Source of the DNA: Amylostereum areolatum
Lineage: Eukaryota > Basidiomycota > Agaricomycetes > Russulales > Stereaceae
DNA length: 64,000 bases
Direction of reading: 5' to 3'
Assembly: GCA_012932865.1 (NCBI GenBank)
Contig: SAXG01000022.1
Coordinates: 1-64,000 of the forward strand
The position numbers and the translations under genes were made by a program. The notes beneath the pieces were generated by a model that made no database searches, was not told the origin of the DNA, and was given only the letters and a program-made list of their open reading frames with translations. This document shows positions 28,076 through 62,185 of this stretch, one piece after another; position 1 is the first letter of the stretch; each line of letters opens with the position of its first letter.

Positions 28076-28603
28076 CTCCCACTTAATGGGATGATCGAAA
28101 GCTAGCGACTCTCCTTTGCTTCCACTAAACCCATCCTCCCACTCAAACGGACGTGTGTGTCATAAGGGACAGGCTTGGTCAGAGCATCTGCCACTATATC
28201 CGCTGAAGGGGCATGAACCAAGAAAACCAATCCATCATTGACACATTCCCAAATGTAATGCCAACAAATATCAATGTGCTTTAGACTTTTACCAGTGACA
28301 GGGTTTTGTGCACTAATAAGCGCGCCCCGGTTGTCACCATACAAGGTAAAAGGCACTTGACTCGGGTAGCCAATCTCTTGATAGAGGTTCCTGTACCAAG
28401 CTATCTGTTTTGCCGCTTCTGCCATTGCAACGTACTCCGCTTCATGGGTAGAATGGGATATCGACTTCTGCTTCTTTGACATCCAGGCGATAGTGCCGCC
28501 GGAGTAGATGAAGACGTATGCAGATGTCGAGTGACGATTATCCCTATTCTCCGCCCATGTTGAAAACACAGAGGGACCTTCAGTCATAAAGTGAAACACA
28601 AAG

Positions 28604-28677
28604 TGGACTGGCCGGGGATTGAACCCAGGACCTCCCATATTCTAGAAGGGTGCTCTAACCAACTGAGCTACCTGTCC
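28604..28677 (-). promoter_or_regulatory. tRNA-like Pol III promoter in TRIM 1, 3' LTR
   Basis: 74 nt folding as a tRNA cloverleaf. Acceptor arms are GGACAGG/CCAGTCC (one A-A mismatch), the D arm is GCTC/GAGC, and the anticodon stem CCCTT/ATGGG has one T-T mismatch. The loop CTAGAAT would place AGA as anticodon, and the T arm is CTGGG/CCCGG. The A box TAGCTCAGTTGG and B box GGTTCAATCCC fit the Pol III consensus exactly. AGA is a serine anticodon, yet the long variable arm of tRNA-Ser is absent, so a promoter role is more likely than a translating tRNA. A CTATATCA motif lies 24-31 bp upstream. Confidence 0.8.
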
Positions 28678-28700
28678 GATAGTGGGAACAGGTTGGTAGT

Positions 28701-28708
28701 TGATATAG
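28701..28708 (-). promoter_or_regulatory. TATA-like motif upstream of the tRNA-like unit
   Basis: CTATATCA on the minus strand, centred about 27 bp upstream of the tRNA-like 5' end. Upstream TATA elements at this distance aid TFIIIB placement on tRNA genes in some fungi. The same motif occurs in all eight TRIM LTRs. Confidence 0.5.
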
Positions 28709-28897
28709 AGAATATCACCGAGCTCTGATTGTGTGCAACAGGCCAGGGCTTAGCCTTATTTCAACACACCCCCGTAAGACCAGGCCTGATGTGATCTTAG
28801 GCACTCGCCACTTGTGCCCAACAGTAATCATGAAGGCGGGTGCTGCTACCATGTTGAAAACACAGAGGGACCTTCAGTCATAAAGTGAAACACAAAG

Positions 28898-28971
28898 TGG
28901 ACTGGCCGGGGATTGAACCCAGGACCTCCCATATTCTAGAAGGGTGCTCTAACCAACTGAGCTACCTGTCC
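28898..28971 (-). promoter_or_regulatory. tRNA-like Pol III promoter in TRIM 1, 5' LTR
   Basis: Second copy of the 74-nt unit, in the LTR that would drive transcription through the primer-binding site and internal region. Confidence 0.8.
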
Positions 28972-29484
28972 GATAGTGGGAACAGGTTGGTAGTTGATAT
29001 AGAGAATATCACCGAGCTCTGATTGTGTGCAACAGGCCAGGGCTTAGCCTTATTTCAACAGCCCAATCCGCATCAGAGAAACCAAATAGCTTGTCCTTCA
29101 CTTTGCCATTGTAGCGAATGCGATAGTCCTGTGTACCAACAATGTACCTCAGAACGTACTTTGCCGCTTTCAGATGGGCCAAAGTGGGGTTCGAGCTGAA
29201 CTGTGCCAGCCATGTGACCGCATACGCAATGTCCGGACGAGAACCAATGGCGATGTACATGAGACTGCCAATGAGAGACTGGTAGTACGTTCTAGTGTGC
29301 GGGTCTGTGTCTTTGGTTGCCTTTTCAAGGACAATACCGGATGGCAGGGGAGTGCGAGTGGGGTTCGCTTCAGACATCTCGAAACGGGCAAGCATTTCTG
29401 CTATGTTCCGCTTTCGATCTATCTCAATTGTCTTCTGCTTTCTGTCGTGAATGATTTGAATCCCAAGGAAAGAAAATAATTCCC

Positions 29485-32555: not shown

Positions 32556-34976
32556 CTCCCCCGTGATGAGACGCCTACTCGAGTCCCATCATCTCCCTGC
32601 AGCGCACAACGCGCTCACGAGGCAGCGCCTTCGTCAGGATGTCGGCCGGCATCTCGTTTGTCCCCACAAACTTGAGAACAATCCGGCCGGCCTCCACTTC
32701 GTCTCGCAGCCAGTAGAAGCGCAGGTCGAGGTGCTTCATGCGTCCATGATGCTCGGGATTCTTTGAGACGTTGATAGACGACTGATTGTCCGAGTACAGG
32801 AGCGAAGCGCCCTCGACTGTGTAGCCAAACTCAGAGAGCAGGTTGCGCATCCAGACGATCTCCTTGCCAGCCTCGACGGCAGCAATGTACTCCGCCTCGG
32901 TCGTCGACTGTGCGACGAGCGATTGGAGGCGAGAGCTCCAGCTGACAGCGCCAGAACCAATGCGGACGAGATACCCGCCTGTGGAGCGGCCATTGTCGAC
33001 GTTTCCGCCGTGGTCCGAGTCCGTGAACGTGGTGAACAGCTCGGAGTCGTCGCTCGGCCTGTACACGAGCTTCAAGTCCTTCGTACCCTGGAGGTACTTG
33101 AACAGATGCTGGACGGCGCGCCAATGCTGAGGACCTGGGTCCGAGATGAAGCGGCACAGGTTGGAGACGGTGTAGGCGATGTCTGGACGGGTAGCAGTCG
33201 CGATGTAGAGCAGGGAGCCGACGGCGCTGCCATAGGGCACCTTCTGCATGAATTCGTGCTCCGACGCGTTCTGGGGCGACATAGCCTTCGTCAGACGCGA
33301 GCCAGGAAGCATGGGCGTGGTGACAGGGTGGCAGTCGGCATGGTTGTAGCGTGCAAGCGTGTCGACGATGTACTGGCGCTGGGAGAGGAAGAGGGTGCGC
33401 AGAGAGCGGTCTCGAGTGATGTGGATGCCGAGGAGGAAGGAGGTGGGGCCGAGATCTCGCAGCTTGAAGTGCGTGCGAAGAGTGGCGATGATCTCGTCGA
33501 GAACAGGCTCCGAATTCGACGCTAAGGTCCCATCGTCGACGAAGACAGGGAGGAGAACGCGCACAGCGTCGCGCTGGAGCACGTAGATTGACGCGTCGCT
33601 GTAGATGCAGCGGAATCCCATCTTGTCGCACAGGACCTCCATCAGCTTGATCTTCCACAGGCGAGCGGCCTGCTTGAGGCCGTAGATCGACTTCTGCAGC
33701 TTGCAGACCGCGCCAGGAGGACCCTCCTCGAAGCCTTCAGGCTGCTTCATGTAGACCTCCGCATCGAGGTCGCCATTGATGAAGGCATGGGAGATGTCGA
33801 TGGAGCGCAGGTGGAGATCCTCGACGGCGGCGAGGGCGAGGACAGTGCGGATGGCCTGGAACTTGGCAGTGGGAGCGAAGGTCTCGAAGTAGTCGAAGCC
33901 AGGACGCTGGGCAAAGCCCTTCGCGACGACGCGCGCCTTGTAGCGCTCGATGGAGCCGTCCTCCTTGCGCTTGACCTTGAAGACCCAGCGCGATGCGACG
34001 GCGTGCGCGCCAGGGGGAAGGGAAGCGATAGACCAGGTGCCATTGGCTGCATGCGCGTCGAGCTCCTCTCTGCACGCTGCAAGCCACATCTCCGCGTCTG
34101 GACGCTGCATAGCCTGCCTGTAGGAGAGCGGCTCGCCGTCTGCGGATAGAAGGGCAGTCTCCAACGCGGTGTGGATGGCAAAGGCGGCCTCAGGCGTCTC
34201 CTGCGCAGAGTAGACGTCGTCATTCGCCCACGGCTCAGGAGAGTCGCTGTGAGCATCGTCCTCCTCGTCGGATTCGACTGCAGGAAGCGGCTCGCGCACT
34301 TTCGCCTTGGAGGGCACTGGTTGAGGCTGCCAGCTGTTCGATCGCGCCTTGACCACGGCGTCGCGCGTGCTACGGCGCAGAGGACCGGTGGGCGAGGCGG
34401 CGCGCTTCCTCCCTCGAGGAGCAGGCCGCGAAGGACCCGCATGTGGAGAGGGAGGTGCAGGATCGGCTGCAGGCGGCGCAGGAGCGGGATCGGCCGCATC
34501 CTGATCATGCTCATCAGCAGGCGGAGCTGGAGGCAGATCAGGCTCGTCTTGCTCAGCAGAGGACGAGTCGTCGTCTCCCCCGGCATCCAGCACCGGCTGA
34601 GAGGGAGCAGGCTCCGATGGAGGCGGAGGAGGGAAGAGGGGAGCGGAAGGCGAGGGCAGGAGCGGCTTGTTGAGCCTGGAGCGAGGGAAATCGCGCTCAT
34701 CAAAGTCGGCGCGCTCGCAAATGATGACCTTCTTCGCTATAGGGTCCCAGAACTTCCAGCCTTTGTACCCCTCCGGATACCCGATGAAGGCGGCCTTCAC
34801 CATGTGCGGCTGCAGGCCCTTGCGCTTGTCGCGCTGGATATGGACGTATGCGGTGCATCCCCACACGCGCAGACGACTCACATCCGGCTTGGACCCGTGC
34901 CAGAGCTCGAAGGGCGTGGTGTGCGCCTTGTGTTGAAAACACAGAGGGACCTTCAGTCATAAAGTGAAACACAAAG

Positions 34977-35050
34977 TGGACTGGCCGGGGATTGAACCCA
35001 GGACCTCCCATATTCTAGAAGGGTGCTCTAACCAACTGAGCTACCTGTCC
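34977..35050 (-). promoter_or_regulatory. tRNA-like Pol III promoter in TRIM 2, 3' LTR
   Basis: Same 74-nt unit as at 28604-28677, with A and B boxes intact. Confidence 0.8.
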
Positions 35051-35270
35051 GATAGTGGGAACAGGTTGGTAGTTGATATAGAGAATATCACCGAGCTCTG
35101 ATTGTGTGCAACAGGCCAGGGCTTAGCCTTATTTCAACACACCCCCGTAAGACCAGGCCTGATGTGATCTTAGGCACTCGCCACTTGTGCCCAACAGTAA
35201 TCATGAAGGCGGGTGCTGCTACCATGTTGAAAACACAGAGGGACCTTCAGTCATAAAGTGAAACACAAAG

Positions 35271-35344
35271 TGGACTGGCCGGGGATTGAACCCAGGACCT
35301 CCCATATTCTAGAAGGGTGCTCTAACCAACTGAGCTACCTGTCC
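35271..35344 (-). promoter_or_regulatory. tRNA-like Pol III promoter in TRIM 2, 5' LTR
   Basis: Same 74-nt unit, upstream of the primer-binding site of this copy. Confidence 0.8.
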
Positions 35345-38083
35345 GATAGTGGGAACAGGTTGGTAGTTGATATAGAGAATATCACCGAGCTCTGATTGTG
35401 TGCAACAGGCCAGGGCTTAGCCTTATTTCAACACCTTGATGGCGGCGGTGGGCAGGCGGTTGCGGACGTGGATGTAGGCACTGAGCGCTTCTCCCCAGAA
35501 AGACGCAGGCAGGCCGGACTCCGCAAGCATCGCGGTGACACCCTCCTCAATGGTGCGATTTGCACGCTCCGCCACGCCGTTCTGCTGAGGGCGATTGCGC
35601 GTCGTATGACGGCGCTCGATCCCGTGCAGCGAACAGAACTCGTCCATGTTGCGCCCCATGTACTCGCCCCCCTTGTCGTCCTGCAGCGCGAGCAGCTTCT
35701 CGCCTGTCTGCTTCTCGGCCCACGCTTTGAAGTCCTTGAACGCCTCGTACTGGTCCGACTTCTTGCGAAGCAGGTAGACGGCGTAGAAACGCGAGGCGGC
35801 GTCGATGTAGAGGACCCAGTAGCGATAGCCAGAGGCGGTGCGGACTGGAAGCGGACCGTGCAGGTCAGAGTGGACGAGGGCGAGGCGCTTTGTGTAGACG
35901 GTGGTAGAGGAGGGGAACGGGTCGGCATGCATCTTGCCAGCGAGGCAGGGCTCGCAGATAGGGTCGGGCTTCTCTAACGAGTTGAAGACGAGACCGGTGA
36001 CGAGATTCTCGCGCACTATGCGCTGGAGACCAGCGTGGTTGAAGTGAGCCAGGCGGCGGTGCCATAGGGACGCGTCGAGCGGCGTAGAGGCGGCGAGCGC
36101 GGCGGATAGGGCGTAGTGCGACGCTGTAGAGGTGGAACCATCGAGATAGGCGGTGTTCGCATCGTTGATCGTTGCAGTGAACCACACAGCGCCGTCCTTA
36201 GCGAAGGAGACGCGGCTCCCCTTGATGGTGACGACGAACGCCTTATGCTTCGCAAGGTAGAGGACAGAGAGGAGATTATTGCGAAGATGGGGAACATGGA
36301 GGACTCTAGTAAACTCGACGGCACCCTGCGCCTTTCCTGCTACAACCGGATTGAACACCACTGAACCGACTCCTGCACTGTACACCGTCTTTCCGTCTGC
36401 GAGGCGAATGGGCGTGCGAAGGGGACGGTAGGAGGCGAAGAAGTGGCGATGCGGGGTCATATGAGACGTGGCGCCGGTGTCTGCATTCCAATCGACGTCA
36501 GCATCGAGCTGCAGCGGCGAGAGGGGGTCGGAAGGAGCGACACTTGCGGATGCAGCGCTGCCAGCGTGTTCGCCAGCAGGATTGAAGCCGTCAGACGACG
36601 ACGAAGCGGCGTTGGCCTTGTCCCCAAGGCGAGAACGCAGGTCCTTGATCTGCTTCTGATAGCAGGTCTTCTCCTCGTGCCCGCTCTTCTTGCAGAACGC
36701 GCAAGTGAGACGTGGACGCGAGGACTGCCCCTTGGCCTTGCCAGATGCGCCAGACGACGACGCACTGAGCGCAGACGAAGCGTCCGGCTTGAAGAACTCG
36801 GGGTTGCGCTCCCTGTTGGTCTCCTCGCGCACAAACGCGTCCTTGACGCTGTCGGGGTCGAGCTTCTCGAGCAGGAGGAGGGACGAGACGAAGGAGGAGT
36901 ACTCCGAGGGGAGGGCGCGGATGTACGCCATGGTGGTGAGCTCCTTGTCGAGCTCCTCGAGGGTGAGAGACGCAGGGCGAAGGGAACGAATGCGACGCAT
37001 AGCATCGTCGACTCGCGTCGCCATAGCGAGCAGGGACTCGTCCTCCTTCTTGCGGACATTGAAGAGGTCGTCATACGCGTTGAAGCGCGCGCCAGGCGCC
37101 TTCTTGACGTGCAGCGCCTCGAGCTTCGTCCACATAGCAGGGGCGTCGCGCCTAAGGTCGTCCACAGGACCTCGCTGGTCCTTGGAGATGAGGAGGTAGA
37201 TGGCACCCCCAGCCTTGGAGCAGATCGAGGTGTACTCCTTGAGGGCGGCAGCAGCAGTATCCGCCGGCTTGGACGTCTCCCCCAGCACTACAGCGTCCCA
37301 GCCCTTGGTCTGGAGCCAGGCCAGAACCTCGTTCGACCAGTCCTTGTAGTTTTGGCCGGTGAGAGCGTCGATTTTGGGGATAGAGTCGGACATAATGAGG
37401 AATTGGAGAGGATATACGCAAAAAGCGACGATTTGGACGAGCAGAGGTTCGAGGGGGCGCCGAGGGCGATGGGATAGGGCGATGGGGGCGGGTACGACGG
37501 CGATGGGGAGGGTGGATGGTCTAGATGGAGGCCTGAAGAGCGCGTACCGATAGCACAACGCGATGGGAAGCTACACTCGTCCGATCCCAAGGTGAAAATT
37601 TCTCGAAACAGCCTCCTGCAAACAACGAGCTCCTGAGGGCGAACGGCTTCAGCGACGGCTACCGCGTTTGGCGAGGGGGTAGGTAGGGTGGTAGGGAGGG
37701 CTGACGCGAAGCGAGGTAGCAAACGGTTGAAGGGGCGCTGAGGGCGCCTTTGATGTTTGTGGGAGGAGGAGGAGGAAGCGTCACAGGCTGTGGACGCGCA
37801 GCGACAAAAGCGACGGCCTTGGGGCTTGGCACGAAGTTGGATAGGGAGTAGTAGATGCGGAATATGCAAGGGCGAGGCGAACGGATGAAGGGGCGTTGCG
37901 TGCGCGCTTGATGTTGCGAAATGCGCGCCCTGGAGGATGGGGATGGCGTTGGGAGGCGACGGATGGGTCGTTCGACTTGAAACTCGAGGGCTGGGGCCTC
38001 TAGGGATGGTAGGAGAGGTGTGTAGAAGGACGAGGCGAGGGGGGTGCTGTGAGGCGAGATAAAAGCGATGGATGTTGGCTAGA

Positions 38084-38847: not shown

Positions 38848-39295
38848 TGTTGAAGTCGCAGTTGAAGGGGCTAGCCAACTAGCTAGGGACGCTCAGAACT
38901 GACACAAACAGTGGATTGCTGCAGCACAGAATGAGCGACTAAGAAACAAGACAGAAACGAGCAAGGGGCATACCTGCAGCACAGAATGAGCGACTGAGGA
39001 GGAGCAGACGCGTGTGGCTGCAGGTAGAGGCCATGGAGCGTGGGAGGAAACTCGGAATAAGCCGAGAATCGACCTAAAGCGGTAACTAACTCGAAACTGA
39101 AGCTAGGGAAGGCTCGGGCTGAACTACAGTAAGTACAGTACAATAGCGAACAGTGGGTGAAGTGGAGAGGGCATGTGAGGGTATAGATGCGGAATGAGGC
39201 GATAATAGGGTGAATGGAGCGGAATAGAAGCGAATAGGACGGAGATAGAACGGAATAAAGGCGTAGAAATCAGACATAAAGGAATATCTTCAACA
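38848..39295 (-). mobile_element. Copia B 3' LTR, subtype 2 (448 bp)
   Basis: Starts TGTTGAAGATATTCC on the minus strand. It lacks the GCTAGCT duplication present in subtype 1 (GGAAGGCTCGGG here against GGAAGCTAGCTCAGG). Confidence 0.9.
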
Positions 39296-41737
39296 CTCCC
39301 CCGTGATGAGACGCCTACTCGAGTCCCATCATCTCCCTGCAGCGCACAACGCGCTCCCGAGGCAGCGCCTTCGTCAGGATGTCGGCCGGCATCTCGTTTG
39401 TCCCCACAAACTTGAGAACAATCCGGCCGGCTTCCACTTCGTCTCGCAGCCAGTAGAAGCGCAGGTCGAGGTGCTTCATGCGTCCATGATGCTCGGGATT
39501 CTTCGAGACGTTGATAGACGACTGATTGTCCGAGTACAGGAGCGACGCGCCCTCGACTGTGTATCCAAACTCAGAGAGCAGGTTGCGCATCCAGACGATC
39601 TCCTTGCCAGCCTCGACGGCAGCAATGTACTCCGCCTCGGTCGTCGACTGTGCGACGAGCGATTGGAGGCGAGAGCTCCAGCTGACAGCGCCAGAACCAA
39701 TGCGGACGAGATACCCGCCTGTGGAGCGGCCATTGTCGACGTTTCCGCCGTGGTCCGAGTCCGTGAACGTGGTGAACAGCTCGGAGTCGTCGCTCGGCCT
39801 GTACACGAGCTTCAAGTCCTTCGTACCCTGGAGGTACTTGAACAGATGCTGGACGGCGCGCCAATGCTGAGGACCTGGGTCCGAGATGAAGCGGCACAGG
39901 TTGGAGACGGTGTAGGCGATGTCTGGACGGGTAGCAGTCGCGATGTAGAGCAGGGAGCCGACGGCGCTGCCATAGGGCACCTTCTGCATGAATTCGTGCT
40001 CCGACGCGTTCTGGGGCGACATAGCCTTCGTCAGACGCGAGCCAGGAAGCATGGGCGTGGTGACAGGGTGGCAGTCGGCATGGTTGTAGCGTGCAAGCGT
40101 GTCGACGATGTACTGGCGCTGGGAGAGGAAGAGGGTGCGCAGAGAGCGGTCTCGAGTGATGTGGATGCCGAGGAGGAAGGAGGTGGGGCCGAGATCTCGC
40201 AGCTTGAAGTGCGTGCGAAGAGTGGCGATGATCTCGTCGAGAACAGGCTCCGAATTCGACGCTAAGGTCCCATCGTCGACGAAGACAGGGAGGAGAACGC
40301 GCACAGCGTCGCGCTGGAGCACGTAGATTGACGCGTCGCTGTAGATGCAGCGGAATCCCATCTTGTCGCACAGGACCTCCATCAGCTTGATCTTCCACAG
40401 GCGAGCGGCCTGCTTGAGGCCATAGATCGACTTCTGCAGCTTGCAGACCGCGCCAGGAGGACCCTCCTCGAAGCCTTCAGGCTGCTTCATGTAGACCTCC
40501 GCATCGAGGTCGCCATTGATGAAGGCATGGGAGATGTCGATGGAGCGCAGGTGGAGATCCTCGACGGCGGCGAGGGCGAGGACAGTGCGAATGGCCTGGA
40601 ACTTGGCAGTGGGAGCGAAGGTCTCGAAGTAGTCGAAGCCAGGACGTTGGGCAAAGCCCTTGGCGACGACGCGCGCCTTGTAGCGCTCGACGGAGCCGTC
40701 CTCCTTGCGCTTGACCTTGAAGACCCAGCGCGATGCGACAGCGTGGGCGCCAGGGGGAAGGGAAGCGATAGACCAGGTGCCATTGGCTGCATGCGCGTCG
40801 AGCTCCTCTCGACACGCTGCAAGCCACATCTCCGCGTCCGGACGCTGCATAGCCTGTCTGTAGGAGAGCGGCTCGCCGTCTGCAGATAGCAGGGCGGTCT
40901 CCAACGCGGTGTGGATGGCAAAGGCGGCCTCAGGCGTCTCCTGCGCAAAGTAGACGTCGTCATTCGCCCACGGCTCAGGAGAGTCGCTGTGAGCGTCGTC
41001 CTCCTCGTCGGATTCGACTGCAGGAAGCGGCTCGCGCACTTTCGCCTTGGAGGGCACTGGCTGAGGCTGCCAGCTGTTCGATCGCGCCTTGACCACGGCG
41101 TTGCGCGTGCTACGGCGCAGAGGACCGGTGGGCGAAGCGGCGCGCTTCCTCCCTCGAGGAGCAGGCCGCGAAGGACCCGCATGTGGAGAGGGAGGTGCAG
41201 GATCGGCTGCAGGCGGCGCAGGAGCGGGATCGGCCGCATCCTGATCGACATCATGCTCGTGCTCATCAGCAGGCGGAGCTGGAGGCTGAACAGGCTCGTC
41301 TTGCTCAGCAGAGGACGAGTCGTCGTCTCCCCCGGCATCCAGCGCCGGCTGAGAGGGAGCGGGCTCCGATAGAGGCGGATGAGGGAAGAGGGGAGCGGAA
41401 GGCGAGGGCAGGAGCGGCTTGTTGAGCCTGGAGCGAGGGAAATCGCGCTCGTCAAAGTCTGCGCGCTCGCAAATGATGACCTTCTTCGCTATGGGGTCCC
41501 AGAACTTCCAGCCTTTGTACCCCTCCGGATACCCGATGAAGGCGGCCTTCACCATGTGCGGCTGCAGGCCCTTGCGCTTGTCGCGCTGGATGTGGACGTA
41601 TGCGGTGCATCCCCACACGCGCAGACGACTCACATCCGGCTTGGACCCGTGCCAGAGCTCGAAGGGCGTGGTGTGCGCCTTGATGGCGGCGGTGGGCAGG
41701 CGGTTGCGGACGTGGATGTAGGCACTGAGCGCTTCTC

Positions 41738-42185
41738 TGTTGAAGATATTCCTTTATGTCTGATTTCTACGCCTTTATTCCGTTCTATCTCCGTCCTATT
41801 CGCTTCTATTCCGCTCCATTCACCCTATTATCGCCTCATTCCGCATCTATACCCTCACATGCCCTCTCCACTTCACCCACTGTTCGCTATTGTACTGTAC
41901 TTACTGTAGTTCAGCCCGAGCCTTCCCTAGCTTCAGTTTCGAGTTAGTTACCGCTTTAGGTCGATTCTCGGCTTATTCCGAGTTTCCTCCCACGCTCCAT
42001 GGCCTCTACCTGCAGCCACACGCGTCTGCTCCTCCTCAGTCGCTCATTCTGTGCTGCAGGTATGCCCCTTGCTCGTTTCTGTCTTGTTTCTTAGTCGCTC
42101 ATTCTGTGCTGCAGCAATCCACTGTTTGTGTCAGTTCTGAGCGTCCCTAGCTAGTTGGCTAGCCCCTTCAACTGCGACTTCAACA
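41738..42185 (+). mobile_element. Antisense solo LTR in Copia B pol
   Basis: A complete 448-bp subtype-2 LTR in the opposite orientation to B, flanked by TTCTC (41733-41737 and 42186-42190). The mirror-image insertion lies at 47112-47559 in C, at the same codon. Confidence 0.92.
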
Positions 42186-43561
42186 TTCTCCCCAGAAAGA
42201 CGCAGGCAGGCCGGACTCCGCAAGCATCGCGGTGACGCCCTCCTCAATGGTGCGATTTGCACGCTCCGCTACGCCGTTCTGCTGAGGGCGATTGCGCGTC
42301 GTATGACGGCGCTCGATCCCGTGCAGCGAACAGAACTCGTCCATGTTGCGACCCATGTATTCGCCCCCCTTGTCGTCCTGCAGCGCGAGCAGCTTCTCGC
42401 CTGTCTGCTTCTCGGCCCACGCTTTGAAGTCCTTGAACGCTTCGTACTGGTCCGACTTCTTGCGAAGCAGGTAGACGGCGTAGAAACGCGAGGCGGCGTC
42501 GATGTAGAGGACCCAGTAGCGATAGCCAGAGGCGGTGCGGACTGGAAGCGGGCCATGCAGGTCGGAGTGGACGAGGGCGAGGCGCTTTGTGTAGACGGTG
42601 GTAGAGGAGGGGAACGGGTCGGCGTGCATCTTGCCAGCGAGGCAGGGCTCGCAGATAGGGTCGGGCTTCTCTAACGAGTTGAAGACGAGACCGGTGACGA
42701 GGTTCTCGCGCACTATGCGCTGGAGACCGGCGTGGTTGAAGTGCGCAAGGCGGCGGTGCCATAGGGACGCGTCGAGAGGCGTAGAGGCGGCGAGCGCGGC
42801 GGATAGGGCGTAGTGCGACGCTGTAGAGGTAGAACCATCGAGATAGGCGGTGTTCGCGTCGTTGATCGTTGCAGTGAACCACACTGCGCCGTCCTTAGCG
42901 AAGGAGACGCGGCTCCCCTTGATGGTGACGACGAACGCCTTATGCTTCGCAAGGTAGAGGACAGAGAGGAGATTGTTTCGAAGATGGGGAACATGGAGGA
43001 CTCTAGTAAACTCGACGGCGCCCTGCGCCTTTCCTGCTACAACCGGATTGAACACCACTGAGCCGACTCCTGCACTGTACACCGTCTTTCCGTCTGCGAG
43101 GCGAATGGGCGTGCGAAGGGGACGGTAGGAGGCGAAGAAGTGGCGATGCGGGGTCATATGAGACGTGGCGCCGGTGTCTGCGTTCCAATCGACGGCAGCA
43201 TCGAGCTGCAGCGGCGAGAGGGGGTCGGAAGGAGCGACACTTGCGGATGCAGCGCTGCCAGCGTGTTCGCCAGCAGGATTGAAGCCGTCAGACGACGAGG
43301 ACGCGGCGTTGGCCTTGTCCCCAAGGCGAGAGCGCAGGTCCTTGATCTGCTTCTGGTAGCAGGTCTTCTCCTCGTGCCCGCTCTTCTTGCAGAACGCGCA
43401 AGTGAGACGTGGACGCGAGGACTGCCCCTTGGCCTTGCCAGATGCGCCAGACGACGACGCACTGAGCGCAGACGAAGCGTCCGGCTTGAAGAACTCGGGG
43501 TTGCGCTCCCTGTTGTGTTGAAAACACAGAGGGACCTTCAGTCATAAAGTGAAACACAAAG

Positions 43562-43635
43562 TGGACTGGCCGGGGATTGAACCCAGGACCTCCCATATTC
43601 TAGAAGGGTGCTCTAACCAACTGAGCTACCTGTCC
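43562..43635 (-). promoter_or_regulatory. tRNA-like Pol III promoter in TRIM 3, 3' LTR
   Basis: Same 74-nt unit, boxes intact. Confidence 0.8.
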
Positions 43636-43855
43636 GATAGTGGGAACAGGTTGGTAGTTGATATAGAGAATATCACCGAGCTCTGATTGTGTGCAACAGG
43701 CCAGGGCTTAGCCTTATTTCAACACACCCCCGTAAGACCAGGCCTGATGTGATCTTAGGCACTCGCCACTTGTGCCCAACAGTAATCATGAAGGCGGGTG
43801 CTGCTACCATGTTGAAAACACAGAGGGACCTTCAGTCATAAAGTGAAACACAAAG

Positions 43856-43929
43856 TGGACTGGCCGGGGATTGAACCCAGGACCTCCCATATTCTAGAAG
43901 GGTGCTCTAACCAACTGAGCTACCTGTCC
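43856..43929 (-). promoter_or_regulatory. tRNA-like Pol III promoter in TRIM 3, 5' LTR
   Basis: Same 74-nt unit, boxes intact. Confidence 0.8.
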
Positions 43930-45290
43930 GATAGTGGGAACAGGTTGGTAGTTGATATAGAGAATATCACCGAGCTCTGATTGTGTGCAACAGGCCAGGG
44001 CTTAGCCTTATTTCAACATGTTGGTCTCCTCGCGCACAAACGCGTCCTTGACGCTGTCGGGGTCGAGCTTCTCGAGCAGGAGGAGGGAGGAGACGAAGGA
44101 GGAGTACTCCGAGGGCAGGGCGCGGATGTACGCCATGGTGGTGAGCTCCTTGTCGAGCTCCTCGAGGGTGAGAGACGCAGGGCGAAGCGAGCGAATGCGA
44201 CGCATAGCATCGTCCACTCGCGTCGCCATAGCGAGCAGGGACTCGTCCTCCTTCTTGCGGACATTGAAGAGGTCGTCATACGCGTTGAAGCGCGCGCCAG
44301 GCGCCTTCTTGACGTGCAACGCCTCGAGCTTCGTCCACATAGCGGGGGCGTCGCGCCTGAGGTCGTCCACAGGACCTCTCTGGTCCTTGGAGATGAGGAG
44401 ATAGATGGCACCCCCAGCCTTGGAGCAGATTGAGGTGTACTCCTTGAGGGCGGCAGCAGCAGTATCCGCCGGCTTGGACGTCTCCCCCAGCACTACAGCG
44501 TCCCAGCCCTTGGTCTGGAGCCAGGCCAGGACCTCGTTCGACCAGTCCTTGTAGTTTTGGCTGGTAAGAGCGTCGATTTTGGGGATAGAGTCGGACATAA
44601 TGAAGAATTGGAGAGGATATGCACCAAAAGCGACGATTTTGGACGAGCAGAGGTTCGAGGGGGGCGCCGAGGGCGAAGGGATAGGGCGATGGGGGCGGTT
44701 ACGACGGCGATGGGGAGGGTGGATGGTCTAGATGGAGGCCTGAAGAGCGCGTACCGATAGCACAACGCGATGGGGAGCTACACTCGTCCGATCCCAAGGT
44801 GAAAATTTCTCGAAACAGCCTCCTGCAGACAACGAGCTCCTGAGGGCGAACGGCTTCCGCGACGGCAACCGCGTTTGGCGAGGGGGTAGGTAGGGTGGTA
44901 GGGAGGGCTGACGCGAAGCGAGGGAGCAAACGGTCGAAGGGGCGCTGAGGACGCCTTTGATGTTGGTGGGAGGAGGGGGAGAAAGCGTCGCAGGCTGTAG
45001 AGGCACAACGGCAAAAGCGACGGACTTGGGGCTTGGCACGAAGGTGGATAGGGTGTAGTAGGTGCGGAATATGCAAGGGCGAGGCGAACGGATGAAGGGG
45101 CGTTGCGTGCGCGCTTGATGTTGCGAAATGCGCGCCCTGGAGGATGGGGATGGTGTTGGAAGGCGACGGATGGGTCGTTCGACTCGAAACTCGAGGGCTG
45201 GGGCCTCTAGGGATGGTAGGAGAGGTGTGTAGAAGGACGAGGCGAGGGGGGTGCTGTGAGGCGAGATAAAAGCGATAGGTGTTGGCTAGA

Positions 45291-45758: not shown

Positions 45759-46113
45759 AGGCGCAGGGTGCCGTCGAGTTTACTAGAGTCCTCCATGTTC
45801 CCCATCTTCGCAATAATCTCCTCTCTGTCCTCTACCTTGCGAAGCATAAGGCGTTCGTCGTCACCATCAAGGGGAGCCGCGTCTCCTTCGCTAAGGACGG
45901 CGCAGTGTGGTTCACTGCAACGATCAACGACGCGAACACCGCCTATCTCGATGGTTCTACCTCTACAGCGTCGCACTACGCCCTATCCGCCGCGCTCGCC
46001 GCCTCTACGCCTCTCGACGCGTCCCTATGGCACCGCCGCCTTGCGCACTTCAACCACGCCGGTCTCCTGTTGAAAACACAGAGGGACCTTCAGTCATAAA
46101 GTGAAACACAAAG

Positions 46114-46187
46114 TGGACTGGCCGGGGATTGAACCCAGGACCTCCCATATTCTAGAAGGGTGCTCTAACCAACTGAGCTACCTGTCC
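46114..46187 (-). promoter_or_regulatory. tRNA-like Pol III promoter in TRIM 4, 3' LTR
   Basis: Same 74-nt unit, boxes intact. Confidence 0.8.
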
Positions 46188-46407
46188 GATAGTGGGAACA
46201 GGTTGGTAGTTGATATAGAGAATATCACCGAGCTCTGATTGTGTGCAACAGGCCAGGGCTTAGCCTTATTTCAACACACCCCCGTAAGACCAGGCCTGAT
46301 GTGATCTTAGGCACTCGCCACTTGTGCCCAACAGTAATCATGAAGGCGGGTGCTGCTACCATGTTGAAAACACAGAGGGACCTTCAGTCATAAAGTGAAA
46401 CACAAAG

Positions 46408-46481
46408 TGGACTGGCCGGGGATTGAACCCAGGACCTCCCATATTCTAGAAGGGTGCTCTAACCAACTGAGCTACCTGTCC
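46408..46481 (-). promoter_or_regulatory. tRNA-like Pol III promoter in TRIM 4, 5' LTR
   Basis: Same 74-nt unit, boxes intact. Confidence 0.8.
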
Positions 46482-47111
46482 GATAGTGGGAACAGGTTGG
46501 TAGTTGATATAGAGAATATCACCGAGCTCTGATTGTGTGCAACAGGCCAGGGCTTAGCCTTATTTCAACATCTCCAGCGCATAGTGCGCGAGAACCTCGT
46601 CACCGGTCTCGTCTTCAACTCGTTAGAGAAGCCCGACCCTATCTGCGAGCCCTGCCTCGCTGGCAAGATGCACGCCGACCCGTTCCCCTCCTCTACCACC
46701 GTCTACACAAAGCGCCTCGCCCTCGTCCACTCCGACCTGCATGGCCCGCTTCCAGTCCGCACCGCCTCTGGCTATCGCTACTGGGTCCTCTACATCGACG
46801 CCGCCTCGCGTTTCTACGCCGTCTACCTGCTTCGCAAGAAGTCGGACCAGTACGAAGCGTTCAAGGACTTCAAAGCGTGGGCCGAGAAGCAGACAGGCGA
46901 GAAGCTGCTCGCGCTGCAGGACGACAAGGGGGGCGAATACATGGGTCGCAACATGGACGAGTTCTGTTCGCTGCACGGGATCGAGCGCCGTCATACGACG
47001 CGCAATCGCCCTCAGCAGAACGGCGTAGCGGAGCGTGCAAATCGCACCATTGAGGAGGGCGTCACCGCGATGCTTGCGGAGTCCGGCCTGCCTGCGTCTT
47101 TCTGGGGAGAA

Positions 47112-47559
47112 TGTTGAAGTCGCAGTTGAAGGGGCTAGCCAACTAGCTAGGGACGCTCAGAACTGACACAAACAGTGGATTGCTGCAGCACAGAATGAGC
47201 GACTAAGAAACAAGACAGAAACGAGCAAGGGGCATACCTGCAGCACAGAATGAGCGACTGAGGAGGAGCAGACGCGTGTGGCTGCAGGTAGAGGCCATGG
47301 AGCGTGGGAGGAAACTCGGAATAAGCCGAGAATCGACCTAAAGCGGTAACTAACTCGAAACTGAAGCTAGGGAAGGCTCGGGCTGAACTACAGTAAGTAC
47401 AGTACAATAGCGAACAGTGGGTGAAGTGGAGAGGGCATGTGAGGGTATAGATGCGGAATGAGGCGATAATAGGGTGAATGGAGCGGAATAGAAGCGAATA
47501 GGACGGAGATAGAACGGAATAAAGGCGTAGAAATCAGACATAAAGGAATATCTTCAACA
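47112..47559 (-). mobile_element. Antisense solo LTR in Copia C pol
   Basis: 448-bp subtype-2 LTR opposite to C, flanked by GAGAA (47107-47111 and 47560-47564). The duplication is the complement of TTCTC at the mirror site 41738-42185. Confidence 0.92.
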
Positions 47560-50001: not shown

Positions 50002-50449
50002 TGTTGAAGATATTCCTTTATGTCTGATTTCTACGCCTTTATTCCGTTCTATCTCCGTCCTATTCGCTTCTATTCCGCTCCATTCACCCTATTATCGCCT
50101 CATTCCGCATCTATACCCTCACATGCCCTCTCCACTTCACCCACTGTTCGCTATTGTACTGTACTTACTGTAGTTCAGCCCGAGCCTTCCCTAGCTTCAG
50201 TTTCGAGTTAGTTACCGCTTTAGGTCGATTCTCGGCTTATTCCGAGTTTCCTCCCACGCTCCATGGCCTCTACCTGCAGCCACACGCGTCTGCTCCTCCT
50301 CAGTCGCTCATTCTGTGCTGCAGGTATGCCCCTTGCTCGTTTCTGTCTTGTTTCTTAGTCGCTCATTCTGTGCTGCAGCAATCCACTGTTTGTGTCAGTT
50401 CTGAGCGTCCCTAGCTAGTTGGCTAGCCCCTTCAACTGCGACTTCAACA
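50002..50449 (+). mobile_element. Copia C 3' LTR (448 bp)
   Basis: Follows the polypurine tract ACGGGGGAG and ends GCGACTTCAACA, then ACAAG of the target duplication. Confidence 0.93.
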
Positions 50450-53862: not shown

Positions 53863-53877
53863 TGGAGAAGCGGCGGT

Positions 53878-55491: not shown

Positions 55492-56022
55492 GATAAGTCT
55501 TGGTGGGATAATCTGGGTTGAGGAGCGGTCAGACCCAGATCCCCAAAGTCGCAAAGAGGCAGCAACCCTCCCCTGTGTCTGTACTCTAAACCAGAAACCC
55601 AAAGGTTCCTGCTCTGCCTCGACATCCATGCGCGCCAATAGTACTTGTATGAACAGTTATAGTATGTGATGCGCAGTTGTAACAGGTGCTCCAGGGTGGA
55701 TTGACTACCTCCCTCTGGATTGGGACACCTAAACTGGTCCGCACTTAAGGGCACCAGCCAACCGTTCACAAGCACCTATAGCGTCACGCTAGGCTCCCCT
55801 AGCGCTTGCCTAATTACCTAAGTATAGTAATTATGTACTGGCTTAGCGACGACACGAGCGTCGCCAGAGGTCCTTCCTGCCAGCTTCCTCAAGTGAGGTC
55901 ACTTGGTTTCAGGGTGCTACGACACTACACATCCTAAGACGTCTTCAGGGTGGCTGGGAACGAAACACCTGCATGCAACCTGGGTAAGTAAAGGACCATG
56001 CCCCTAATGGGCCAGACTATAT
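55492..56022 (-). other. Copia E 5' leader, part next to gag
   Basis: No gene. This is the untranslated leader of Copia E, interrupted at 56022 by Copia D (TSD TATAT) and continued at 61963-62171. A small inverted word, GCGACGACACGAGCGTCGC, lies near 55846. Confidence 0.6.
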
Positions 56023-56473
56023 TGTTGAAGATATTCATTTATGTCTGATTTCTACGCCTTTATTCTGTTCTATCTCCCTTCTATTCGCGTCTATTCCGCT
56101 CCATTCACCCTATTATCATCTAATTCCGCGTCTATACCCTCACATGCCCTCTCCACTTCACCCACTGTTCGCTATTGTACTGTACTTACTGTAGTTCAGC
56201 CTGAGCTAGCTTCCCTAGCTTCAGTTTCGAGTTAGTTACCGCTTTAGGTCGATTCTCGGCTTATTCCGAGTTTCCTCCCACGCTCCATGGCCTCTACCTG
56301 CAGCCACACGCGTCTGCTCCTCCTCAGTCGCTCATTCTGTGCTGCAGGTATGCCCTTTGCTCGTTTCTGTCTTGTTTCTCAGTCGCTCATTCTGTGCTGC
56401 AGCAATCCACTGTTTGTGTCAGTTCTGAGCGTCCCTAGCTAGTTGGCTAGCCCCTTCAACTGCGACTTCAACA
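56023..56473 (+). mobile_element. Copia D 5' LTR
   Basis: 451 bp with termini TGTTGAAGATATTCA and GCGACTTCAACA. It contains two copies of CTCAGTCGCTCATTCTGTGC (at about 56321 and 56378), each ending in TGCAG. Confidence 0.94.
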
Positions 56474-56490
56474 GGTTATGGGCCCTGCGC
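56474..56490 (+). other. Copia D primer-binding site (half-tRNA type)
   Basis: GGTTATGGGCCCTGCGC follows the 5' LTR with no spacer. It pairs with the anticodon arm of an initiator-Met tRNA, as in Drosophila copia. Confidence 0.82.
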
Positions 56491-57181
56491 TCTAGCCAAC
56501 ATCCATCGCTTTTATCTCGCCTCACAGCACCCCCCTCGCCTCGTCCTTCTACACACCTCTCCTACCATCCCTAGAGGCCCCAGCCCTCGAGTTTCAAGTC
56601 GAACGACCCATCCGTCGCCTCCCAACGCCATCCCCATCCTCCAGGGCGCGCATTTCGCAACATCAAGCGCGCACGCAACGCCCCTTCATCCGTTCGCCTC
56701 GCCCTTGCATATTCCGCATCTACTACTCCCTATCCAACTTCGTGCCAAGCCCCAAGGCCGTCGCTTTTGTCGCTGCGCGTCCACAGCCTGTGACGCTTCC
56801 TCCTCCTCCTCCCACAAACATCAAAGGCGCCCTCAGCGCCCCTTCAACCGTTTGCTACCTCGCTTCGCGTCAGCCCTCCCTACCACCCTACCTACCCCCT
56901 CGCCAAACGCGGTAGCCGTCGCTGAAGCCGTTCGCCCTCAGGAGCTCGTTGTTTGCAGGAGGCTGTTTCGAGAAATTTTCACCTTGGGATCGGACGAGTG
57001 TAGCTTCCCATCGCGTTGTGCTATCGGTACGCGCTCTTCAGGCCTCCATCTAGACCATCCACCCTCCCCATCGCCGTCGTACCCGCCCCCATCGCCCTAT
57101 CCCATCGCCCTCGGCGCCCCCCTCGAACCTCTGCTCGTCCAAATCGTCGCTTTTTGCGTATATCCTCTCCAATTCCTCATT

Positions 57182-60100
57182 ATGTCCGACTCTATCCCCA
57201 AAATCGACGCTCTCACCGGCCAAAACTACAAGGACTGGTCGAACGAGGTTCTGGCCTGGCTCCAGACCAAGGGCTGGGACGCTGTAGTGCTGGGGGAGAC
57301 GTCCAAGCCGGCGGATACTGCTGCTGCCGCCCTCAAGGAGTACACCTCGATCTGCTCCAAGGCTGGGGGTGCCATCTACCTCCTCATCTCCAAGGACCAG
57401 CGAGGTCCTGTGGACGACCTTAGGCGCGACGCCCCTGCTATGTGGACGAAGCTCGAGGCGCTGCACGTCAAGAAGGCGCCTGGCGCGCGCTTCAACGCGT
57501 ATGACGACCTCTTCAATGTCCGCAAGAAGGAGGACGAGTCCCTGCTCGCTATGGCGACGCGAGTCGACGATGCTATGCGTCGCATTCGTTCCCTTCGCCC
57601 TGCGTCTCTCACCCTCGAGGAGCTCGACAAGGAGCTCACCACCATGGCGTACATCCGCGCCCTGCCCTCGGAGTACTCCTCCTTCGTCTCCTCCCTCCTC
57701 CTGCTCGAGAAGCTCGACCCCGACAGCGTCAAGGACGCGTTTGTGCGCGAGGAGACCAACAGGGAGCGCAACCCCGAGTTCTTCAAGCCGGACGCTTCGT
57801 CTGCGCTCAGTGCGTCGTCGTCTGGCGCATCTGGCAAGGCCAAGGGGCAGTCCTCGCGTCCACGTCTCACTTGCGCGTTCTGCAAGAAGAGCGGGCACGA
57901 GGAGAAGACCTGCTACCAGAAGCAGATCAAGGACCTGCGCTCTCGCCTTGGGGACAAGGCCAACGCCGCGTCCTCGTCGTCTGACGGCTTCAATCCTGCT
58001 GGCGAACACGCTGGCAGCGCTGCATCCGCAAGTGTCGCTCCTTCCGACCCCCTCTCGCCGCTGCAGCTCGATGCTGACGTCGATTGGAATGCAGACACCG
58101 GCGCCACGTCTCATATGACCCCGCATCGCCACTTCTTCGCCTCCTACCGTCCCCTTCGCACGCCCATTCGCCTCGCAGACGGAAAGACGGTGTACAGTGC
58201 AGGAGTCGGTTCAGTGGTGTTCAATCCGGTTGTAGCAGGAAAGGCGCAGGGTGCCGTCGAGTTTACTAGAGTCCTCCATGTTCCCCATCTTCGCAATAAT
58301 CTCCTCTCTGTCCTCTACCTTGCGAAGCATAAGGCGTTCGTCGTCACCATCAAGGGGAGCCGCGTCTCCTTCGCTAAGGACGGCGCTGTGTGGTTCACTG
58401 CAACGATCAACGATGCGAACACCGCCTATCTCGATGGTTCCACCTCTACAGCGTCGCACTACGCCCTATCCGCCGCGCTCGCCGCCTCTACGCCGCTCGA
58501 CGCGTCCCTATGGCACCGCCGCCTGGCTCACTTCAACCACGCTGGTCTCCAGCGCATAGTGCGCGAGAATCTCGTCACCGGTCTCGTCTTCAACTCGTTA
58601 GAGAAGCCCGACCCTATCTGCGAGCCCTGCCTCGCTGGCAAGATGCATGCCGACCCGTTCCCCTCCTCTACCACCGTCTACACAAAGCGCCTCGCCCTCG
58701 TCCACTCTGACCTGCACGGTCCGCTTCCAGTCCGCACCGCCTCTGGCTATCGCTACTGGGTCCTCTACATCGACGCCGCCTCGCGTTTCTACGCCGTCTA
58801 CCTGCTTCGCAAGAAGTCGGACCAGTACGAGGCGTTCAAGGACTTCAAAGCGTGGGCCGAGAAGCAGACAGGCGAGAAGCTGCTCGCGCTGCAGGACGAC
58901 AAGGGGGGCGAGTACATGGGGCGCAACATGGACGAGTTCTGTTCGCTGCACGGGATCGAGCGCCGTCATACGATGCGCAATCGCCCTCAGCAGAACGGCG
59001 TGGCGGAGCGTGCAAATCGCACCATTGAGGAGGGTGTCACCGCGATGCTTGCGGAGTCCGGCCTGCCTGCGTCTTTCTGGGGAGAAGCGCTCAGTGCCTA
59101 CATCCACGTCCGCAACCGCCTGCCCACCGCCGCCATCAAGGCGCACACCACGCCCTTCGAGCTCTGGCACGGGTCCAAGCCGGATGTGAGTCGTCTGCGC
59201 GTGTGGGGATGCACCGCATACGTCCATATCCAGCGCGACAAGCGCAAGGGCCTGCAGCCGCACATGGTGAAGGCCGCCTTCATCGGGTATCCGGAGGGGT
59301 ACAAAGGCTGGAAGTTCTGGGACCCTATAGCGAAGAAGGTCATCATTTGCGAGCGCGCCGACTTTGATGAGCGCGATTTCCCTCGCTCCAGGCTCAACAA
59401 GCCGCTCCTGCCCTCGCCTTCCGCTCCCCTCTTCCCTCCTCCGCCTCCATCGGAGCCTGCTCCCTCTCAGCCGGTGCTGGATGCCGGGGGAGACGACGAC
59501 TCGTCCTCTGCTGAGCAAGACGAGCCTGATCTGCCTCCAGCTCCGCCTGCTGATGAGCATGATCAGGATGCGGCCGATCCCGCTCCTGCGCCGCCTGCAG
59601 CCGATCCTGCACCTCCCTCTCCACATGCGGGTCCTTCGCGGCCTGCTCCTCGAGGGAGGAAGCGCGCCGCCTCGCCCACCGGTCCTCTGCGCCGTAGCAC
59701 GCGCGACGCCGTGGTCAAGGCGCGATCGAACAGCTGGCAGCCTCAACCAGTGCCCTCCAAGGCGAAAGTGCGCGAGCCGCTTCCTGCAGTCGAATCCGAC
59801 GAGGAGGACGATGCTCACAGCGACTCTCCTGAGCCGTGGGCGAATGACGACGTCTACTCTGCGCAGGAGACGCCTGAGGCCGCCTTTGCCATCCACACCG
59901 CGTTGGAGACTGCCCTTCTATCCGCAGACGGCGAGCCGCTCTCCTACAGGCAGGCTATGCAGCGTCCAGACGCGGAGATGTGGCTTGCAGCGTGCAGAGA
60001 GGAGCTCGACGCGCATGCAGCCAATGGCACCTGGTCTATCGCTTCCCTTCCCCCTGGCGCGCACGCCGTCGCATCGCGCTGGGTCTTCAAGGTCAAGCGC

Positions 60101-61492
60101 AAGGAGGACGGCTCCATCGAGCGCTACAAGGCGCGCGTCGTCGCGAAGGGCTTTGCCCAGCGTCCTGGCTTCGACTACTTCGAGACCTTCGCTCCCACTG
60201 CCAAGTTCCAGGCCATCCGCACTGTCCTCGCCCTCGCCGCCGTCGAGGATCTCCACCTGCGCTCCATCGACATCTCCCATGCCTTCATCAATGGCGACCT
60301 CGATGCGGAGGTCTACATGAAGCAGCCTGAAGGCTTCGAGGAGGGTCCTCCTGGCGCGGTCTGCAAGCTGCAGAAGTCGATCTATGGCCTCAAGCAGGCC
60401 GCTCGCCTGTGGAAGATCAAGCTGATGGAGGTCCTGTGCGACAAGATGGGATTCCGCTGCATCTACAGCGACGCGTCAATCTACGTGCTCCAGCGCGACA
60501 CTGTGCGCGTTCTCCTCCCTGTCTTCGTCGACGACGGCACCCTGGCGTCGAATTCGGAGCCTGTTCTCGACGAGATCATCGCCACTCTTCGCACGCACTT
60601 CAAGCTGCGAGACCTCGGCCCCACCTCCTTCCTCCTTGGCATCCACATCACTCGAGACCGCTCCCTTCGCACCCTCTTCCTCTCCCAGCGCCAGTACATC
60701 ATCGACACGCTTGCGCGCTACAATCACGCCGACTGCCACCCTGTCACCACGCCTATGCTTCCTGGCTCGCGTCTGACGAAGGCCATGTCGCCCCAGAACG
60801 CTTCTGAGCGCGAATTCATGCAAAAGGTGCCCTATGGCAGCGCCGTCGGCTCCCTGCTCTACATCGCGACTGCGACCCGTCCAGACATCGCCTACACTGT
60901 CTCCAATCTCTGCCGCTTCATTTCGGACCCAGGTCCTCAGCATTGGCGCGCCGTCCAGCATCTGTTCAAGTACCTCCAGGGCACGAAGGACTTGAAGCTC
61001 GTGTACAGGCCGACCGACGACTCCGAGCTGTTCACCACCTTCACAGACTCGGACCACGGCGGAAACGTCGACAATGGCCGCTCCACAGGCGGGTATCTCG
61101 TCCGCATTGGTTCTGGCGCTGTCAGCTGGAGCTCTCGCCTCCAATCGCTCGTCGCACAGTCGACGACTGAGGCGGAGTACATTGCTGCCGTCGAGGCTGG
61201 CAAGGAGATCGTCTGGATGCGCAACCTGCTCTCTGAGTTTGGCTACACAGTCGAGGGCGCTTCGCTCCTGTACTCGGACAATCAGTCGTCTATCAACGTC
61301 TCAAAGAATCCCGAGCATCATGGACGCATGAAGCACCTCGACCTGCGCTTCTACTGGCTGCGAGACGAAGTGGAGGCCGGCCGGATTGTTCTCAAGTTTG
61401 TGGGGACAAACGAGATGCCGGCCGACATCCTGACGAAGGCGCTGCCTCGGGAGCGCGTTGTGCGCTGCAGGGAGATGATGGGACTCGAGTAG
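57182..61492 (+). CDS. Copia D Gag-Pol polyprotein
   Basis: A single 1436-residue frame makes all element proteins. I chose the ATG at 57182 (MSDSIPKIDALTGQNYKDWS) because Copia gags begin close to such a NYxxW motif; the open frame extends 159 codons upstream into low-complexity leader. Domains: UBN2-type gag (1-200), CCHC knuckle CAFCKKSGHEEKTC (about 230-243), protease NADTGATSHM (about 304), pre-integrase HRRLAHFNHAGL and CEPC (about 443-482), integrase DDE (HSDLHGP about 508, QDDKGGEY about 571, GVAERANRT about 605). A Pro/Ala-rich spacer follows. RT has ERYKARVVAKGF (about 980) and FVDDGTLAS (about 1114). RNase H has FTDSDHGGNVDNGRS (about 1288) and YSDNQSSINVSKNP (about 1364). All expected catalytic residues are present. 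No frameshift or stop is seen, so activity is plausible. Confidence 0.95.
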   Translation: MSDSIPKIDALTGQNYKDWSNEVLAWLQTKGWDAVVLGETSKPADTAAAALKEYTSICSKAGGAIYLLISKDQRGPVDDLRRDAPAMWTKLEALHVKKAPGARFNAYDDLFNVRKKEDESLLAMATRVDDAMRRIRSLRPASLTLEELDKELTTMAYIRALPSEYSSFVSSLLLLEKLDPDSVKDAFVREETNRERNPEFFKPDASSALSASSSGASGKAKGQSSRPRLTCAFCKKSGHEEKTCYQKQIKDLRSRLGDKANAASSSSDGFNPAGEHAGSAASASVAPSDPLSPLQLDADVDWNADTGATSHMTPHRHFFASYRPLRTPIRLADGKTVYSAGVGSVVFNPVVAGKAQGAVEFTRVLHVPHLRNNLLSVLYLAKHKAFVVTIKGSRVSFAKDGAVWFTATINDANTAYLDGSTSTASHYALSAALAASTPLDASLWHRRLAHFNHAGLQRIVRENLVTGLVFNSLEKPDPICEPCLAGKMHADPFPSSTTVYTKRLALVHSDLHGPLPVRTASGYRYWVLYIDAASRFYAVYLLRKKSDQYEAFKDFKAWAEKQTGEKLLALQDDKGGEYMGRNMDEFCSLHGIERRHTMRNRPQQNGVAERANRTIEEGVTAMLAESGLPASFWGEALSAYIHVRNRLPTAAIKAHTTPFELWHGSKPDVSRLRVWGCTAYVHIQRDKRKGLQPHMVKAAFIGYPEGYKGWKFWDPIAKKVIICERADFDERDFPRSRLNKPLLPSPSAPLFPPPPPSEPAPSQPVLDAGGDDDSSSAEQDEPDLPPAPPADEHDQDAADPAPAPPAADPAPPSPHAGPSRPAPRGRKRAASPTGPLRRSTRDAVVKARSNSWQPQPVPSKAKVREPLPAVESDEEDDAHSDSPEPWANDDVYSAQETPEAAFAIHTALETALLSADGEPLSYRQAMQRPDAEMWLAACREELDAHAANGTWSIASLPPGAHAVASRWVFKVKRKEDGSIERYKARVVAKGFAQRPGFDYFETFAPTAKFQAIRTVLALAAVEDLHLRSIDISHAFINGDLDAEVYMKQPEGFEEGPPGAVCKLQKSIYGLKQAARLWKIKLMEVLCDKMGFRCIYSDASIYVLQRDTVRVLLPVFVDDGTLASNSEPVLDEIIATLRTHFKLRDLGPTSFLLGIHITRDRSLRTLFLSQRQYIIDTLARYNHADCHPVTTPMLPGSRLTKAMSPQNASEREFMQKVPYGSAVGSLLYIATATRPDIAYTVSNLCRFISDPGPQHWRAVQHLFKYLQGTKDLKLVYRPTDDSELFTTFTDSDHGGNVDNGRSTGGYLVRIGSGAVSWSSRLQSLVAQSTTEAEYIAAVEAGKEIVWMRNLLSEFGYTVEGASLLYSDNQSSINVSKNPEHHGRMKHLDLRFYWLRDEVEAGRIVLKFVGTNEMPADILTKALPRERVVRCREMMGLE

Positions 61493-61502
61493 GCGTCTCA
61501 TC

Positions 61503-61511
61503 ACGGGGGAG
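61503..61511 (+). other. Copia D polypurine tract
   Basis: ACGGGGGAG ending at the 3' LTR edge. It differs from the TRIM tract (ACGGGGGTG) at one position. Confidence 0.8.
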
Positions 61512-61962
61512 TGTTGAAGATATTCATTTATGTCTGATTTCTACGCCTTTATTCTGTTCTATCTCCCTTCTATTCGCGTCTATTCCGCTCCATTCACCCT
61601 ATTATCATCTAATTCCGCGTCTATACCCTCACATGCCCTCTCCACTTCACCCACTGTTCGCTATTGTACTGTACTTACTGTAGTTCAGCCTGAGCTAGCT
61701 TCCCTAGCTTCAGTTTCGAGTTAGTTACCGCTTTAGGTCGATTCTCGGCTTATTCCGAGTTTCCTCCCACGCTCCATGGCCTCTACCTGCAGCCACACGC
61801 GTCTGCTCCTCCTCAGTCGCTCATTCTGTGCTGCAGGTATGCCCTTTGCTCGTTTCTGTTTTGTTTCTCAGTCGCTCATTCTGTGCTGCAGCAATCCACT
61901 GTTTGTGTCAGTTCTGAGCGTCCCTAGCTAGTTGGCTAGCCCCTTCAACTGCGACTTCAACA
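61512..61962 (+). mobile_element. Copia D 3' LTR
   Basis: 451 bp, one apparent substitution against the 5' LTR (TTCTGTTTTG for TTCTGTCTTG). Confidence 0.94.
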
Positions 61963-62185
61963 TATATCGTAGCGCGCAGAGGGACGGAGGACAAGAGGAC
62001 TCGCAATGGCTTCTGCCCACCTCAGGGCTCCCTCGCCGTGCTCGTATTACCCCTTCAGGGTGAGGACACAATGCAAGGCCCAGGGCCAAGCAAATTGGGG
62101 AGCGAGTGGGACAAATGAATGTTACTCGCCTTTGAAGAACTTTGTACGACTTGAGGGTTAAATAGATAGGCCAGGGCCCATAACC
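61963..62185 (-). other. Copia E 5' leader, distal part, and primer-binding site
   Basis: Continuation of the E leader after Copia D. At 62172-62185 the minus strand reads GGTTATGGGCCCTG, a 14-nt match to the initiator-Met anticodon arm, directly next to the LTR stub. No coding sequence. Confidence 0.7.

Follow-up and report, generated by a model that had tools for sequence, protein, structure and literature searches.

Helenus elements are TRIMs that carry tRNA-derived sequence in their LTRs (Kojima 2024, PMC10886601). They are reported from rusts and Agaricomycetes; the text of that paper names Amylostereum areolatum among the hosts, although for the Agaricomycetes its Table 1 has Agaricus bisporus and Coprinopsis cinerea alone. 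Fungal Helenus elements have 5-bp target-site duplications (TSDs) and Copia-like primer sites, and few Helenus elements encode a plausible tRNA. Helenus elements measure 311-1263 bp, and SMARTs measure 292 bp (PMC10886601). The locus described here, in A. areolatum (Agaricomycetes, Russulales, Stereaceae), is thus of a kind already known, because Helenus was published in 2024 with this fungus as a named host. Its remaining interest is that of a clean case for Pol III transcription and helper choice: a plausible helper that has an open frame lies next to a very young, many-copy TRIM of the Pol III type, which would allow direct tests of both trans-mobilisation and the proposed Pol III step.

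Within the window (the whole stretch of DNA that was analysed, 64,000 nt), positions 28558..29060 form a 503-bp LTR element with TG/CA ends, in which two identical 209-bp LTRs surround an 85-bp interior. The element is flanked by the TSD GCCCA at 28553..28557 and 29061..29065. Its sense strand is the minus strand, because the tRNA-like unit, the primer-binding site (PBS) and the polypurine tract (PPT) are concordant and stand in the expected order; their orientation rules out a plus-strand reading. The sense 5' LTR therefore occupies 28852..29060, the internal region 28767..28851 and the sense 3' LTR 28558..28766, all on the minus strand. Read in sense, the interior opens with the PBS, TGGTAGCAGCACC (28839..28851, minus). 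These 13 nt are complementary to the 3' terminus of initiator-Met tRNA and pair without mismatch with the genome's own initiator-Met tRNA genes once CCA is added to their 3' ends. The interior closes with the PPT, CGGGGGTG (28767..28774, minus), which adjoins the LTR. Being shorter than 1000 bp, with two LTRs and an interior bounded by a PBS and a PPT, the element is a TRIM, and its 85-bp interior is too small to encode a helper protein.

Each LTR contains a 74-nt tRNA-like unit recognized by ARAGORN and by Rfam model RF00005, at 28898..28971 in the sense 5' LTR and at 28604..28677 in the sense 3' LTR (both minus); the two units are spaced 294 nt apart. Inside the unit of the sense 5' LTR are TAGCTCAGTTGG (28953-28964, minus) and GGTTCAATCC (28910-28919, minus), which are the A box and the B box as judged against the consensus. 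The initial annotation had already proposed this anatomy, namely paired 209-bp TG/CA repeats around 85 bp, a 5-bp TSD, a PBS, a PPT and, in each LTR, a 74-nt cloverleaf-like unit with A and B boxes, and every one of these features was recovered; the minus-strand sense and the exact recurrence elsewhere in the window go beyond what it stated. Its overall reading, that of a miniature LTR element which lacks coding capacity and whose LTRs hold a promoter sequence of the tRNA type, matches the sequence, and its tentative remark that tRNA-bearing terminal-repeat elements occur in basidiomycetes is right and corresponds to the Helenus TRIMs (PMC10886601). The accompanying suggestion that 503 bp is close to the smallest workable size does not stand, given the published sizes of Helenus and SMARTs.

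The likeness to Helenus is extensive. Both LTRs contain tRNA-derived sequence, the length of 503 bp falls inside the Helenus range, and the 5-bp TSD, PBS and PPT are those of a fungal Helenus. Here too the anticodon and the tRNA body disagree, a Copia-type partner is suspected, and the tRNA-like unit is not complementary to the PBS, which excludes the unit as the element's own primer; units of the Ser-AGA type are listed for several rust Helenus families (PMC10886601). There are two differences. The PBS matches the 3' end of initiator-Met tRNA, which is a minority choice among fungal families (PMC10886601), and no autonomous element carrying it was found among its 56 places in the genome, so that the primer site shared with an autonomous Copia, seen in several families though not defining for the group, was not recovered here. 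Judged from the published description, the TRIM is very likely the deposited A. areolatum Helenus. Two other groups are more distant. Cassandra of plants likewise lacks coding capacity and has LTRs that contain a promoter sequence for Pol III (PMC10886601), but it contains 5S rRNA in place of tRNA, lives in plant hosts and has a separate origin. The tRNA-derived SINEs (SINE2) share a tRNA-type internal promoter sequence, short length and lack of coding capacity, but LTRs, PBS and PPT are absent from them, and they rely on non-LTR elements for target-primed reverse transcription (PMC10886601). The element is very probably a Helenus-type TRIM that is mobilised in trans by an autonomous element of the Copia type.

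The tRNA-like unit scores 56.1 bits against RF00005 in both LTRs (cut-off 29), with near-intact A and B boxes, and lies in sense orientation in both. Its anticodon is of the Ser-AGA type and its variable loop is short, whereas the true tRNA-Ser-AGA of the A. areolatum genome has a long arm; the unit is therefore unlikely to work as a tRNA-Ser. Among five host tRNAs compared, the nearest is Ile-AAT, which shares 50 of 74 positions with it, and a pattern chosen from the D arm and anticodon occurs at only six places in the genome, where the matched text is identical to tRNA-Ile. The minimum-energy fold is predicted to be cloverleaf-like, with unremarkable stability (z -1.25, 26 of 200 shuffles being equally good; a host tRNA-Ile gave z -2.07). 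No constraint on the unit above that on the rest of the LTR was detected in the sampled imperfect LTRs (17 distinct).

The window contains three further exact copies, all on the minus strand and all within Copia X sequence (Copia X being a resident element described below): 34931..35433 with the TSD CCTTG, 43516..44018 with TGTTG and 46068..46570 with TCTCC. This brings the exact copies in the window to four, every one of them flanked by a 5-bp TSD of its own. The genome searched comprised 57,130,172 bp in 182 contigs, which is less than the published total (57,567,124 bp in 248 scaffolds, PMC7227769), and short scaffolds may be missing from the searches. Since the best 40 of 105 candidates were scored in the search with the full element, its copy counts are lower bounds: at least 49 matches were found, 43 of those listed matching over 498 or more of the 503 positions and six being partial, and at least 37 copies are exact at full score. 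The 20-mer at the internal start occurs at 55 places with at most one mismatch (52 exact), and its 56th match, with three mismatches, is at control level (controls 5 and 4). The tRNA-like unit itself occurs 151 times at up to three mismatches (control 0). Compared with the 55 internal starts, this gives an excess of about 41 LTRs, which is what recombination between LTRs, or partial copies, would produce. The published A. areolatum annotation gives 457 tRNA genes (PMC7227769); set beside this figure, the 151 TRIM units, if included in it, imply that much of the tally may be transposon. A separate observation on tRNA genes is that the same clusters (such as Asp-His-Met), AT-rich in look, are repeated across contigs C85, C87, C150 and C151 of the genome (G000); perhaps these are mitochondrial DNA fused to nuclear contigs.

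Exact copies thus recur in the genome, and 30 of 34 distinct flank pairs (exact copies, loci L001-L041) show a 5-bp TSD; both results place the element beyond chance. The four pairs that lack one (L008, L009, L023 and L030) look rearranged; in L023, the sense-upstream flank is that of L026 and the downstream flank is that of L021. No strong base preference was seen in the 30 TSDs, only a mild shortage of A at the outer positions. LTR matches were taken from sampled loci, with overlapping loci counted more than once, and 98 of these 124 matches are perfect. The 17 distinct imperfect LTRs are 94.6-99.5% identical to the window LTR, and two recurrent differences, G48A and T56C, dominate them. When seven weakly diverged LTRs were treated as solo copies, two had a TSD. 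Most members of the family are very young, older copies forming a tail, and the polished PacBio/Illumina assembly may have somewhat homogenised the identical ones. A TSD is present at 27 of the 31 exact-copy loci L001-L031, and in 8 of these 27 (L004, L006, L012, L013, L014, L021, L025 and L027) both flanks are Copia X; three of the four window copies are among these 8. The reason for such insertions may be that copies cluster in regions rich in transposons, with no targeting involved.

Judged from the sequence, transcription of the TRIM by Pol III is likely, and it would make the element a TRIMp3. The transcript would start a little upstream of the tRNA-like unit of the sense 5' LTR, would read part of the time through the TTTT that closes this LTR (28857..28860, minus; a candidate weak Pol III stop) and would end at the corresponding TTTT in the sense 3' LTR (28563..28566, minus; a candidate Pol III stop). 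With such a start and stop, the RNA would carry the tRNA-like unit near both ends, as an R region. The 3' end of initiator-Met tRNA would then prime reverse transcription, and a Copia integrase that recognizes the TGTTGAA...TTCAACA ends would insert the copy. On the sense strand, runs of four or more T occur only at LTR positions 201-204, in both LTRs, so a full-length RNA requires read-through of the first TTTT. Runs of five T are absent from the 503 nt, which is not significant at a T fraction of 0.286. Among the 18 host tRNA genes examined, several of them duplicates, 17 have at least five T within 60 nt downstream, which makes read-through of four T plausible. On the other hand, a run of four is the first downstream T run in 5 of the 18, so that such a run may or may not stop Pol III in A. 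areolatum. The motif TATATC (28996..29001, minus), which precedes the tRNA-like unit by about 30 nt, might contribute to initiation, a role that is uncertain. A TATA-like motif lies near -25 in just 2 of the 18 examined genes, and at -14 or -6 in three more; one at -30, as in the TRIM, is not regular in host tRNA genes, and this counts against a role of the motif with Pol III.

The same motif is also compatible with a Pol II start, and the tRNA-like unit, which shows no extra conservation in the sampled imperfect LTRs, could then be a passenger, for instance a captured tRNA or SINE, that plays no part in making the template RNA. We regard this as unlikely: both boxes are near-intact, the unit is in sense in both LTRs, and the same boxes are kept across many unrelated Helenus families (PMC10886601), which a passenger would not explain. 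Far less probable still, to the point that we give it next to no weight, is that the pairing of tRNA-like units at 294 nt betrays a tRNA gene repeat or a SINE dimer and not an LTR element. The repeated entity is a constant 503-bp unit with TG/CA ends, PBS and PPT, it is bordered by 5-bp TSDs in the great majority of flank pairs (30 of 34), it lacks the poly(A) or simple-repeat tail that is typical of SINEs, and surplus single LTRs exist. A Helenus-type TRIM, probably transcribed by Pol III, accounts for the locus better.

Copia X lies on the plus strand at 56023..61962 between copies of the TSD TATAT, with LTRs at 56023-56473 and 61512-61962 that differ by one mismatch. Its open frame has 1687 codons and, scanned in pieces, contains Copia gag, RVT_2, gag_pre-integrs and SH3 domains above the Pfam cut-offs; in the same piecewise scan the integrase core reached 25.4 bits, under its cut-off of 32.6. 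Copia X and the TRIM have in common their LTR ends (TGTTGAAG...CTTCAACA versus TGTTGAAA...TTTCAACA), the PPT/LTR junction (CGGGGGAGTGTTGAA versus CGGGGGTGTGTTGAA) and the length of the TSD. Beyond the ends and the PPT, local alignments between them were not above those of 100 shuffles, and on this ground we rejected the TRIM as a deletion derivative of Copia X. The junction motif CGGGGGNGTGTTGAA, with any base allowed at the place where the two differ, has 123 matches in the genome (control 0). At this place, the five window junctions of the X type have A and the four window TRIMs have T; among the 100 matches listed, 53 have A and 47 have T, one of the latter (L097) being unrelated. The PBS of Copia X (56474-56490, plus) pairs over 17 nt with nt 26-42 of initiator-Met tRNA, that is, with the anticodon region, away from the 3' end. 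If Copia X is the helper, the TRIM and Copia X thus have the tRNA in common and not its site. Even so, we lean towards Copia X as the best helper candidate.

The mismatch in primer site invites the alternative that the helper belongs to a different Copia family, such as one whose short primer site matches the 3' end of initiator-Met tRNA. Copia X does not have the PBS of the TRIM, and it is not the sole candidate, because at 62185 on the minus strand the LTR end TTCAACA precedes a primer site for the anticodon region of initiator-Met tRNA, in what looks like a second Copia-like family. Searches for the TRIM PBS weigh in the other direction. Its 13 nt occur at 56 places in the genome, 55 of them in the TRIM family itself, and the remaining one (L096) has no adjoining LTR end of the TTCAACA type; no autonomous element with the same PBS is among the 56. 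A search for near matches of the PBS returned 7 matches (controls 4 and 4) and no autonomous element, and a second one returned 52, all with the LTR end and PBS joined without a gap as in the TRIM and, again, no autonomous element. The listed matches to the PPT/LTR motif likewise comprise only the X type, the TRIM type and the one unrelated place. We therefore consider a helper from another Copia family a serious but less probable option, and retain Copia X as the favoured candidate. How the two might cooperate can be suggested tentatively: within the same particles, the TRIM and Copia X could prime from different sites of one tRNA, its intact 3' end and its anticodon region, respectively. Were this so, recognition in trans would depend on the LTR ends, the PPT and the packaged tRNA, not on a common PBS, and the TRIM would avoid the tRNA cleavage that Copia X requires.

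Several further arrangements were seen among these elements. A second Copia element, at 51737-55656 on the minus strand, has a fragmented frame, with RVT_2 and gag domains in separate frames. On contig C41 of the genome (G000), X-type PPT/LTR junctions at 5848, 9576, 13304, 17032 and 20760 are spaced by exactly 3,728 bp, which suggests that shortened Copia X units are arrayed in tandem. In the window, 38848-42726 and 46571-50449 form a 3.9-kb inverted repeat, 99.97% identical, that includes Copia X sequence, and two TRIM copies lie between its arms. At locus L032, near position 2544, a TRIM sits inside the LTR end of a fellow TRIM, with GTTTT duplicated. Finally, locus L099 (G000:C96:474050-474850) holds two partial TRIMs head to head with GATGA on either side; the pair terminates on each side in a sense 3' LTR end, as if it had integrated as a single inverted-dimer unit.
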